Of a DNA stretch of 64,000 nucleotides, positions 46,741 to 51,018 are shown piece after piece. A model generated the notes under the pieces. The model was not told the origin of the DNA and did no database searches. It saw nothing but the letters and a program-made list of their open reading frames with translations. The stretch is from Chitinophaga terrae (ex Kim and Jung 2007) (GTDB taxonomy: Bacteria; Bacteroidota; Bacteroidia; Chitinophagales; Chitinophagaceae). Position numbers and translations under genes: made by a program. The stretch covers positions 62,001 to 126,000 of the forward strand of contig NZ_FNRL01000007.1 in the NCBI RefSeq assembly GCF_900107795.1, given 5' to 3'. Within the stretch, counting starts at the first letter, position 1. Each line of letters starts with the position of its first letter.

Positions 46741-47790
46741 TTATTTCATCAGCGTGGCATAATACGCAGCGCCCCATAAAGCAGCTTTATCGTTTGCCAC
46801 GATATGTATCGGCACACTGCTCAATAACTCCGCCATTCGGTCGCTTTGCATATAATGATGATAGAATTCTCCTGTTTGCAGCAACTGGGAAATCCTTGGA
46901 GGTATGCCGCCGCCGAGGAATAGTCCGCCGGTTGCTTTCAGTTTCAACACCAGGTTACTGGATTCGCGGGCCAGGTAACGCACGAACAATTCCATGGTTT
47001 TATTACAGATCGGGATATCTGCTTCGATAGCGCCCTTGCTGATCTCGGCAGCTGCATCGCCATTGGCAATGGCAGTTCTTAAAGCGTAAGGTTCTTCAAG
47101 ACCTTTGACATCTCTCAGGAATTCAAAAATATCTTTTAATCCGGGTCCACTGATCACCCGTTCGGCGCTCACGATCTCATATTTGTCCTGCAGGTATCTC
47201 ATGAGCAGGATATCCAGGTCTGTTCGTGGTGCGAAATCTGTGTGCCCGCCCTCCGTAGGAAACGGATGATGCAATTTACCATCCCAGTATATTCCTGCCA
47301 TTCCCAAACCGGTTCCGGGTGCTATGATCGCCATGTTCCCGGCTGCATTCTTTTCACCGGTATGTATAGTGGTCAGGTGACTGGCGGATAACGTGGCCAA
47401 CCCGTATGCAGTTGCTTCCAGGTCGTTGATCAGCGCCACAGACTGCACACCGGTCGCCTTCCTGATATCCGCCTCGCTCAATGACCTGGAGAGATTGGTT
47501 AAATCCACTTCTCCGTCAACCACGGGCCCGGCAACGCCAATGCATATACGCTGGGGCGGAGTTTCGGGGCTTTCCGCGATAAATTCCCTGATCAATTCTG
47601 CGAAGTTTTCATGGTCTTTGGAGGCAAATTTCTCATCGCGGATCATGTCTAACTCTCCGTTTACCACGCTGCATATCGCAAGGTTTGTTTTGGTGCCGCC
47701 CAGGTCTCCCGCTACCAGGTAGATCTTTTCATTCTTCGCTTCCGGTGTAATAAAATGAGGTAAATACTGTTGCATCTCTGAAATCTGCAT
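46741..47790 (-). CDS. glk: Glucokinase
   Basis: A 349-residue sugar kinase of the bacterial glucokinase (Glk, PF02685) type that phosphorylates glucose with ATP. The phosphate-1 motif VAGDLGGTKTNLAICSV is at the N-terminus; then ICIGVAGPVVDGEVDLTN, ALINDLEATAYGL (catalytic Asp), IIAPGTGLGMA and the GGHTDFAPR segment with the zinc-less His/Asp sugar site. It could use glucose released by the nearby GH15 enzyme or trehalose turnover (inference from distance only). Confidence 0.94.
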   Translation of the reverse strand: MQISEMQQYLPHFITPEAKNEKIYLVAGDLGGTKTNLAICSVVNGELDMIRDEKFASKDHENFAELIREFIAESPETPPQRICIGVAGPVVDGEVDLTNLSRSLSEADIRKATGVQSVALINDLEATAYGLATLSASHLTTIHTGEKNAAGNMAIIAPGTGLGMAGIYWDGKLHHPFPTEGGHTDFAPRTDLDILLMRYLQDKYEIVSAERVISGPGLKDIFEFLRDVKGLEEPYALRTAIANGDAAAEISKGAIEADIPICNKTMELFVRYLARESSNLVLKLKATGGLFLGGGIPPRISQLLQTGEFYHHYMQSDRMAELLSSVPIHIVANDKAALWGAAYYATLMK

Positions 47791-47923
47791 TGTATCGGTC
47801 TTTTTACTAAAATAAGGTATTAGTTTGATACCTCTCGCAAATTAGTAATCCGCCCGGAAGTATGAAGCTTTTCCGGCGCTCCCAGCTTGCCGGGTGATAC
47901 TGCATCGTGTAAACAAGCCAACC

Positions 47924-48241
47924 TCACCGATCGTCTTCCATTACAATACACCCATTTCTCGCTAATCCGTCCAATAGTTCCCGTACAATGTGTTCTACGT
48001 CAGATCTTTTAGGCACTGGATTCTTCTGCAGGTAAAAGATCCGGGATTTATCAAAAAAGTCCACTAAATCATCGATGGTCGTATTATGATTTCTATTAGA
48101 ATGAATAAAGAAAAGAATCAATGAGTTTAGCCAATGATAGTCGGATATTCTCACAATATCGCCTGAAGAGTGTTTGTAAAGAACCCCATATGGTTCCTCA
48201 AAAAACACACGATCTCCATTTATTACTAATGTTCCCGTCAT
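47924..48241 (-). CDS. Small protein, possibly PqqD/RRE-like
   Basis: A 105-residue protein with no certain family. The pattern GVLYKHSSGDIVRISDYHWL, then a Thr-Ile-Asp-Asp-Leu helix, then DVEHIVRELLDGLARNGCIV is reminiscent of PqqD-like RiPP recognition elements (a β-hairpin, then helices, with a C-terminal helix ending in a short strand). It starts 5 bases after the SpaB_C-like gene, so the two form a two-gene operon. A leader-peptide-binding partner role is inference only. Confidence 0.5.
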   Translation of the reverse strand: MTGTLVINGDRVFFEEPYGVLYKHSSGDIVRISDYHWLNSLILFFIHSNRNHNTTIDDLVDFFDKSRIFYLQKNPVPKRSDVEHIVRELLDGLARNGCIVMEDDR

Positions 48242-48246
48242 ATATC

Positions 48247-49185
48247 TTATGAATTAATTTCTTGTTGCTTACGGGCGTCGACCGCAATATCTGATGCATT
48301 TAAGGTGTGTCGGGCAGCATTATAATACATATACAAAAATTCATAGACCAAGAGTTCATGCAGTCGTTCTTTATGTGTAATTAACCTGTTTAACATCATG
48401 TGAACCAGGCTCGACATGAGACTGAATGGGTCAATTGTTAACCTTTGCTCTTCTTTAAGCGCTGAAATAGCTTTCAATTGCTCATTCAACGCCGCTTTAC
48501 GCTGATTCAGCAACGGCATGATCTCCCTGAACCTGCCTGTCTGATCATTTTTCCTGTTCAATAACTCTGCAATGTCTTTTCTATGCAGCGCATATTTCTC
48601 GTTAACCTTTTTCATAAAGGGATCAAACTCCTTCTGGTATTCTTTCCGCACTGCGTCTGCAAAGTTGATTTTTTCCTGCAGCGTTAACCCCAGGTCAGAA
48701 AGCAGGTCATCTGTCAGGCGCAATCCGATCAAAAACGTGAGATTAGGATTGCTTCTGCGCTGTACATAGCCAATAATCGGCAAGGCAAATAAACTATCAA
48801 TAAAAAATATGGATTCACATATTTCCATAGATGTCGATCCATACCGTTCAATTTCTCTCGAGTAAGTATCTGGCTGTATTTTCCATATCAGGTTACCGTA
48901 TTCTGATTCGGAAATGGCAGAATTCAGAAGGTTTGATAACTCGCTTACTTTATCGGGGGTTGTAAGCAGGAAACGGAGCCTGATATGATAGTCCGGGTCC
49001 TGGTATTTAACAAAGAACCATTTGGAAGCAAGTCCCCCCTGCATGATCCTGTTCACCATTGGATGAATTACTTCACTCAGAATCAGGTCGGCAGAACTGA
49101 TGCCACAATAAAGCTTGACATAAAACCATTCGCTTCCCAATCCGAAATTTCTTTGCGGCAGATTAGCGATATCAAAGGTCACCAA
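48247..49185 (-). CDS. Stand-alone SpaB_C / thiopeptide-type bacteriocin biosynthesis domain protein
   Basis: A 312-residue protein matching the LanB C-terminal (elimination-type) domain throughout: FGLGSEWFYVKLYCGISSAD, GGLASKWFFVKYQDPDYHIR, LRFLL, and a C-terminal RLTIDPFSLMSSLVHMMLNR then YNAARHTLN. In class I lanthipeptide synthetases this domain removes glutamate from glutamylated Ser/Thr; relatives include thiopeptide elimination enzymes and pyridine synthases. The large LanB N-terminal domain, a LanC and a precursor are absent here. Only TTG 49185 or GTG 49182 can start it. Its start is 51 bases from the divergent GH15 start. Confidence 0.88.
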   Translation of the reverse strand: MVTFDIANLPQRNFGLGSEWFYVKLYCGISSADLILSEVIHPMVNRIMQGGLASKWFFVKYQDPDYHIRLRFLLTTPDKVSELSNLLNSAISESEYGNLIWKIQPDTYSREIERYGSTSMEICESIFFIDSLFALPIIGYVQRRSNPNLTFLIGLRLTDDLLSDLGLTLQEKINFADAVRKEYQKEFDPFMKKVNEKYALHRKDIAELLNRKNDQTGRFREIMPLLNQRKAALNEQLKAISALKEEQRLTIDPFSLMSSLVHMMLNRLITHKERLHELLVYEFLYMYYNAARHTLNASDIAVDARKQQEINS

Positions 49186-49236
49186 TACTGGAACAGCTTT
49201 TGCCTCAAGAAAGCCTGTAATTTAAACATATTCGAT

Positions 49237-51018
49237 ATGGAAAGACATACCTATCAGACTGGCATTATTGGCAACTGTGCGTTTATTGCACATATCAACA
49301 AAAATACCAACCTGGATTGGCTCTGCTGGCCCCGAATGGACAGTACTTTTATATTCGGCGGACTGCTGGATAAAGAAAAAGGCGGTGAATTTTCCATTCT
49401 TCCTGAAGGCGGTTATACTTCCTACCAGTACTATATGGAAAACACCAACGTGTTGTGTACGGAAATTACCACCTCTGAGGGAAGCTACAGGATCACCGAC
49501 TACGCGCCCCGGTTCTACCAGTACGAACGTTTCTTTAAACCGTTGATGATGATCCGCAAAGTTGAGCCCCTGGAAGGCTCGCCGAGGATCAGGGTTAAAT
49601 GTCGCCCCGTTTGCGATTATGGCGCTTTCCAGCTAAAAGCCATGCGAGGCAGCAGCCATATCGAATTTGCAGGATGTGATGAAAATATCCGGTTAACTAC
49701 GAATATCCCTGTCAGTTACCTGTTCGATCAAGAGTATTTTGTACTGAACGATACCCGTTACCTGGTGCTGACTTACGGACGCCCGCTGGAAGCCGCCCTG
49801 GTAAGTACCGCAGAACATTTCTTAAGGGAAACCATTATTTACTGGCGCTCCTGGATCAAGCAATCTTCCATCGCCAATTATTTCCAGCCTTACGTGATCC
49901 GCTCGGCCCTCACCCTGAAAATACACCAATACGAAGATACAGGCGCTATTATAGCCGCCAGCACCACCAGTTTGCCCGAATTTCCAAACAGTGGCCGAAA
50001 CTGGGACTACCGTTATTGCTGGATGCGTGACACTTATTACGTGATCACCGCGTTGAATCACATTGGGCATTTCGAGGAAATGGAAAGATATTTCGGGTAT
50101 ATAACGGATATCTCCTTTTCCGGCGAAATGCGCTACCAACCGCTGTATGGGATTACCGGACAAAAAACGCTGACTGAAAATATACTTCCTGAACTGGATG
50201 GTTATTTAGGTAACAAGCCTGTACGAATTGGAAACCAGGCATATGAGCATATACAGAACGATATCTACGGCCAGGTCCTGATCTCAATGCTCCCCCTATA
50301 TACTGATCACCGTTTCATCTTCTCGGAAAGAAAAGATTCTGCCAGGTGGATAGAATTACTTCTGAATAAAATAGAAAGGACCATCGATGAAAAAGACGCG
50401 GGGATCTGGGAGTTCAGGAATATGGCTAACATCCATTGCTATACGAACCTGTTCCAGTGGGCAGGCTGCAGCGCCGCAGAAAAAATGGCTAAGACCATCG
50501 GTAACGAGAACCTGCTGAAACGCGCTTCTGCCCTGAAAGCTAAAGCCGCCGCCCATATAGAAAGTTGTTATGATCCTGAAAGAAAGGTCTATACCAATGC
50601 CGCTGGCGGTAAAGACCTGGATGCCAGCACCCTGCAACTCATTATGATGAATTACCTGGACCCTTCTTCTCAAAGAGCCCGGGATCACCTGGCTGCACTT
50701 GAAAAAGAACTGAAAACACCGGAAGGACTTTTCTACAGGTACCGGCATGCCGATGATTTCGGAAAACCTCATACCACTTTCCTCGTGTGTGCATTCTGGT
50801 ATGTAGAGGCATTAGCCTGTGTAGGCAGACTGGAAGATGCTCAAAGAGAATTTGCACAACTGCTGCAATATTCCAATCACCTGCTTTTATTCAGTGAAGA
50901 CGTAGAATCTGCCAACGGCAGTCAATGGGGTAACTTCCCTCAGGCATATAGCCATGTAGGGTTAATGAACGCAGCATATCGCATAGCCATGAAAATGGAT
51001 ATGCCTATATTCCTGTAA
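49237..51018 (+). CDS. Glycoside hydrolase family 15 protein (trehalase/glucoamylase-like)
   Basis: A 593-residue GH15 enzyme. The N-terminal super-sandwich segment (TGIIGNCAFIAHINKN, DWLCWPRMDS) is followed by an (α/α)6 barrel with GRNWDYRYCWMRDTYYVITA (acid Glu/Asp region), AWIELLLNKIERTIDEKDAG-type helices and LLLFSEDVESANG / GNFPQAYSHVGLMNAA (base region). GH15 enzymes next to trehalose-phosphate synthase genes often act as trehalases. The open frame reaches back to 48985 through the divergent gene; ATG 49237 gives the family N-terminus. Confidence 0.92.
   Translation: MERHTYQTGIIGNCAFIAHINKNTNLDWLCWPRMDSTFIFGGLLDKEKGGEFSILPEGGYTSYQYYMENTNVLCTEITTSEGSYRITDYAPRFYQYERFFKPLMMIRKVEPLEGSPRIRVKCRPVCDYGAFQLKAMRGSSHIEFAGCDENIRLTTNIPVSYLFDQEYFVLNDTRYLVLTYGRPLEAALVSTAEHFLRETIIYWRSWIKQSSIANYFQPYVIRSALTLKIHQYEDTGAIIAASTTSLPEFPNSGRNWDYRYCWMRDTYYVITALNHIGHFEEMERYFGYITDISFSGEMRYQPLYGITGQKTLTENILPELDGYLGNKPVRIGNQAYEHIQNDIYGQVLISMLPLYTDHRFIFSERKDSARWIELLLNKIERTIDEKDAGIWEFRNMANIHCYTNLFQWAGCSAAEKMAKTIGNENLLKRASALKAKAAAHIESCYDPERKVYTNAAGGKDLDASTLQLIMMNYLDPSSQRARDHLAALEKELKTPEGLFYRYRHADDFGKPHTTFLVCAFWYVEALACVGRLEDAQREFAQLLQYSNHLLLFSEDVESANGSQWGNFPQAYSHVGLMNAAYRIAMKMDMPIFL

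Follow-up and report, generated by a model that had tools for sequence, protein, structure and literature searches.

A truncated LanB elimination-domain gene and its small partner, the probable 3' end of a former RiPP cluster

Gene pair and its setting

Two co-directional ORFs on the minus strand, separated by a gap of 5 bases and both confirmed as real at the coordinates given below, lie between a glucokinase-type gene and a GH15-type glycoside hydrolase gene in the window, that is, the whole 64,000-nucleotide stretch of DNA analyzed here. The surroundings consist of ordinary chromosomal genes, named from their sequences as a TolC/HlyD/MFS efflux set, glucokinase, GH15, and trehalose-6-phosphate synthase/phosphatase. 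The features of the locus are as follows:

46741..47790, minus strand: glucokinase-type gene (left flank), next to GH15 in each of the 29 other genomes in the comparison
47831..47923, no strand: left junction zone, from the conserved glucokinase upstream sequence to the stop of the small gene (insert end approximate)
47924..48241, minus strand: small protein of 105 aa from an ATG start, family without assignment, partner gene 3' of lanB
48247..49185, minus strand: truncated LanB, a stand-alone SpaB_C / Lant_dehydr_C elimination (glutamate lyase) domain of 312 aa, TTG/GTG start
49177..49188, no strand: right junction, with LanB homology up to 49176 and GH15 upstream homology from 49189
49237..51018, plus strand: GH15-type glycoside hydrolase gene (right flank), starting at ATG 49237

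The SpaB_C ORF has no ATG start; from the preceding stop up to the sequence derived from LanB, its frame offers only TTG/GTG codons. On the opposite strand, the GH15 frame is open by chance through the fragment (window 48985-51018), and gene callers may add a false N-terminal extension of 84 residues to GH15.

Elimination domain and small protein

The 312-aa ORF is a complete LanB elimination domain with scores above the curated cut-offs: it covers positions 1-255 of the 255 in PF14028 (Lant_dehydr_C; E 3.9e-62, 211.2 bits versus a cut-off of 24.4) and matches the whole TIGR03891 model (E 1.8e-62, 211.6 bits versus 48.45), in agreement with the sequence-only reading of this DNA. The elimination motifs are kept, namely HxRxR at residues 67-71, RYG at 114-116, and H262MxxNR. 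The catalytic residues of NisB are R784/R786, R826, and H961 (PMC4341554); R69/R71, R114, and H262, assigned by motif as their equivalents, are present in the window copy and conserved in the family alignment. Full-length LanB proteins (NisB, MibB, MadB) have these H-x-R-x-R, RYG, and H-M-x-x-N-R motifs of the C-terminal domain in common with the window ORF; in contrast to it, they also possess their own N-terminal glutamylation domain and RRE, an ortholog of which is missing from the window genome as well.

The best PDB matches of the 312-aa protein are MadB (9g04, E 1.6e-19) and MibB (5ehk). The alignment of the fragment to MadB begins at MadB residue 753, and the inter-domain linker of MadB, residues 741-753, is disordered (PMC12241602). 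The cut falls in the disordered linker and leaves the elimination domain whole, and the product of the SpaB_C ORF could still fold and be competent to act as a glutamate lyase.

The 105-aa protein had been credited, by eye, with a PqqD-like pattern, for which neither Pfam, PF05402, nor hhalign gave support. It showed no significant match in Pfam, NCBIfam, and PDB profile searches, with no PqqD in Pfam at E<=10, and it was not matched in a genome-wide search with PF05402 (PqqD). Compared with the PqqD proteins of the genus, it gave an hhalign value of 3.3, whereas shuffled sequences (100 controls) reached up to 11. Its identification as PqqD/RRE by sequence was rejected, there being no sequence or profile similarity. 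The protein is present in 2 of the 79 genus genomes, and no convincing homologs were found in 396 family-level or 395 class-level genomes. Weak homologs in the family sample were all treated as chance matches: the best, in G199, has no LanB in its vicinity and is encoded opposite an arginyl-tRNA synthetase-like gene, and the other four contain stop codons.

According to the strict definition, an RRE consists of three strands followed by three helices in a winged-helix fold (PMC12710340). AlphaFold2, run with two sequences (mean pLDDT 60, strands mostly below 50), placed strands of the small protein at residues 2-7, 10-15, 20-23, and 29-31 and helices at 36-48, 56-66, and 79-95. In size and in this predicted strand-strand-strand(-strand)-helix-helix-helix order (pLDDT 60), the protein is similar to discrete RRE and PqqD proteins, although it shares neither sequence nor profile similarity with them. 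The model thus allows the possibility that the small protein is an RRE which may bind a leader peptide.

Intact orthologous cluster in a relative and parts missing from the window genome

The genus search covered 79 genomes, and the only very close genus relative of the SpaB_C protein (82% identity) was found in G066, a relative within the same genus, as the end of a 1061-aa open frame. The LanB encoded there comprises 1059 aa and both domains (PF04738 at 36-697, PF14028 at 767-1035); its residues 747-1058 are 82% identical to the 312-aa ORF of the window, whereas residues 1-746 have no counterpart there. Directly downstream of the G066 lanB lies a gene encoding 107 aa, 73% identical to the 105-aa protein, and upstream of lanB lie genes for a C39-type ABC exporter and an HlyD protein as well as three short ORFs (44, 65, and 75 aa), the 65-aa and 75-aa ORFs having leader-like sequences that end in GG. 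The small gene and the elimination domain of this cluster are orthologous to the window pair and follow the same order, and the earlier assignment of the pair to RiPP maturation is borne out by the membership of both genes in a LanB cluster. In contrast to the pair, the G066 cluster is complete and sits between an MFS gene and glucokinase, not between glucokinase and GH15. Conservation of the pair in relatives holds for the G066 orthologs (82%, 73%) but not for the truncated form, which occurs in no other genus genome searched. A contig scan for close LanB relatives returned three distant LanBs only. The intact cluster was located at L078:4112-8221 and L036:13580-17082, with no LanC nearby.

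The window genome is a draft assembly of 64 contigs and 99.97% complete, and its gene content points to a Chitinophaga-like member of Bacteroidota. LanB-N (PF04738) occurs in it as a single copy, on contig C25, within a fused 1015-aa LanB frame that has its own elimination domain; the genome search for LanB-N that had been proposed yielded no separate one. The 312-residue protein was rightly described as unfused to a glutamylation domain. Matches of the G066 LanB in the window genome are limited to the window fragment (747-1058) and the 31% identical LanB on C25, and no piece of residues 1-746 was found anywhere in the genome. The exporter of G066 likewise has no ortholog genome-wide (best match 31%), and a LanC-like gene was found on contig C32 only in the genome-wide search. 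Within the window, tblastn with the G066 cluster detected the pair and a 31% match between the ABC part of the exporter and an unrelated ABC protein encoded at 19.2-20.7 kb, with no precursor, HlyD, or exporter ortholog, which agrees with the earlier statement that partners are lacking nearby. The pair is therefore not a class I lanthipeptide or split-LanB locus as these are defined (LanB-N; G066-type precursor, LanC, and exporter).

Glucokinase and GH15 are direct divergent neighbors with a short gap in all 29 of the other genomes compared, and for this reason the pair is regarded as an intruder between them. In blastn, DNA homology between the window and G066 starts at 47994, or at 47940 if the scoring is relaxed, and breaks off abruptly at 49176, inside lanB; in the intergenic alignment, homology to the GH15 upstream sequence resumes at 49189, at a conserved TTGGAAcAGCTTTTG / TTGGAAnAGCTTTTG box. 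On the left side, the conserved glucokinase-adjacent sequence ends near 47830 in the GlcK-GH15 intergenic alignment, and at this junction the window has lost the GTTTTGTTAAT box that most relatives possess. Neither a target-site duplication nor inverted repeats longer than 6-7 bases were found at the insert ends. Recombination, in which GH15 or GlcK would have received a tract from a donor resembling G066, was considered and rejected, as the identity between the window and G066 does not rise close to the junction. The whole G066 cluster lies near by, yet beyond glucokinase on its far side, so that the fragment may have arrived either by duplication and deletion or by separate acquisition.

G048, the relative whose GH15 and glucokinase most resemble those of the window, has neither a G066-type cluster nor the small gene, and unrelated genes occupy its MFS-glucokinase interval. 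This interval is variable in the genus, holding the LanB cluster in G066, almost nothing in the window, and the unrelated genes in G048 (L122:4437-10187), among which are three similar ORFs of ~145 aa resembling bacilliredoxins. The glucokinase-GH15 gap of G066 (L037:5670-5910) contains a perfect 12-base inverted repeat, CCGTTAGTAAAA / TTTTACTAACGG, possibly the scar of another insertion.

Conservation and origin of the pair

Compared with the intact orthologous gene, the fragment resembles a pseudogene in its loss of coding sequence, as residues 1-746 of 1059 are missing, whereas the remaining sequence shows no stops, no frameshifts, no excess of changes at conserved sites, and no relaxed selection. 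Between the SpaB_C part and G066 (NG86), dN is 0.097, dS 1.74, and dN/dS 0.056, with dS values near saturation and rough; the dN is similar to that of the flanking GH15 (0.111) and lower than that of glucokinase (0.199). When scored with 29 other SpaB_C domains as the reference, the window copy reaches 286.9 bits versus 284.4 for the intact G066 copy, the corresponding Pfam scores are 211 versus 207, and among 35 polarized differences the window copy keeps the family residue in 20, versus 15. In a neutral simulation with substitutions only, both ORFs stayed stop-free with 2.5% probability after 0.08 substitutions per site. Since the synonymous branch length is roughly 0.87 (half of the rough, nearly saturated dS), unconstrained evolution would be limited to a small share of the time since the two genes diverged, which leaves two options, a recent truncation or continued use of the fragment. 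Had the 1059-codon gene been broken at random, the domain would have stayed complete in a few percent of cases only; the conservation of the pair and the position of the cut in the linker are as compatible with retained function as with a lucky cut of recent date. Decaying remnants, the outcome by which the sequence-only reading would have been refuted, were thus found in part: among the 79 genomes of the genus, just one other has the pair, with its domain fused and its gene context kept, but the sequence itself has not decayed.

The fusion of the G066 ortholog and the genome-wide absence of the missing parts argue for a lost cluster of which the pair was the tail, not for a set with partners elsewhere. 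We consider that the pair is probably what is left of the 3' end of a LanB-type RiPP cluster, truncated, displaced, and recently orphaned, and the sequence comparisons best explain it as the remnant of a cluster of known general type, not as a natural split-LanB system. From what is known of the LanB family, we infer that in the ancestor or donor the N-terminal domain of a full-length LanB would have attached glutamate from Glu-tRNA to Ser/Thr residues of GG-leader peptides and the C-terminal domain would have eliminated it, while the C39 ABC exporter and HlyD protein would have cut and exported the product, with the small gene directly behind lanB. In the window lineage, a rearrangement would then have spared only the elimination domain and the small gene, which came to lie in the gap between glucokinase and the divergently oriented GH15, and the glutamylation domain, exporter, and precursors would have been lost. 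Having no glutamylated substrate of its own, the fragment most likely does nothing useful now.

The main competitor of such a relic, considerably less probable than it, is a pair with retained function, in which the elimination domain and the small protein would act in trans, e.g., as an additional glutamate lyase acting on what the C25 LanB produces or on some other glutamylated peptide. The intact motifs, the lack of decay, and the cut at the domain border are consistent with it. When NisB was split by engineering, its elimination domain proved fully functional in trans (PMC8546558), and stand-alone glutamate lyases have been described beside a full-length dehydratase (PMC9486935), so that function of the window domain in trans is chemically possible. 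However, the sole other LanB of the genome has its own elimination domain and sits on another contig, neither a G066-type precursor nor a glutamylation partner lies near the pair, the ORF lacks an ATG start, and the truncated form is confined to this genome among those searched in the genus. A more specific proposal, to which we assign a slightly smaller chance, is that a full-length LanB was severed exactly where its two domains meet and that the lyase and a new small, possibly RRE-like, protein were kept under selection to act in trans on peptides glutamylated by another enzyme; if true, the pair would be a naturally occurring counterpart of the split that until now has been made in NisB by engineering. 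If the fragment is kept, it would document in nature the step from a fused to a split LanB.

Split LanB pairs are known in TbtB/TbtC, GodF/GodG, and pinensin-like systems, and natural split LanBs were also found within the genus in the four genomes inspected (G015, G034, G048, and G054), surrounded by LanC-like genes, exporters, or precursor-like ORFs, named as read from sequence. The separate elimination protein of such pairs, the TbtB/TbtC, GodF/GodG, and genus ones alike, has ~300 aa, as in the window. In the four genus genomes, however, the separate SpaB_C gene lies directly downstream of its own LanB-N gene, whereas the window gene has no adjoining LanB-N. The window ORF falls in the fused LanB branch, with 25-28% identity to the split-type SpaB_C proteins of the genus. 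With its closest ortholog fused, no separate LanB-N in the genome, and both LanB 1-746 and the exporter ortholog absent genome-wide, a split-LanB system of the TbtB/TbtC or pinensin-like type with its other genes elsewhere, as had been suggested, is highly improbable. Slightly less credible again is the other earlier suggestion, a reused SpaB_C domain that catalyzes a different reaction and is paired with an RRE. Stand-alone enzymes of the SpaB_C fold with other reactions, such as the pyridine synthase TbtD, are known, but the window ORF is 82% identical to a canonical LanB elimination domain, keeps all elimination motifs, and has no azole or dehydropeptide cluster genes around it. An assembly artefact, i.e., a full cluster cut by a misjoined contig, deserves equally little credence: the assembly is a draft of 64 contigs, but the junction lies 110 kb inside a 271 kb contig, both flanks are neighbors seen in relatives, and the missing parts are nowhere in an assembly of such completeness.

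Since a single relative exposed this pair as the tail of a lost cluster, stand-alone SpaB_C genes call for caution before they are described as new split RiPP systems. The G066 locus, with a LanB, a C39 exporter, GG-leader peptides, and a lineage-specific small protein and without LanC, is the better lead for RiPP mining. A second C39 exporter of G066, 49% identical to the first, is accompanied by an HlyD protein and GG-leader peptides at L126:4438-8691. In the window genome, the fused C25 LanB (1010 aa; L034:13658-16690) is preceded by a 66-aa ORF (L034:12984-13184) and a response regulator, and no LanC adjoins it. The tail of the 66-aa ORF is Thr-rich and Cys-free (LPTLPTTYETTPTTLTTINTTTKP), which makes this ORF a candidate precursor of a dehydrated peptide without lanthionine rings.
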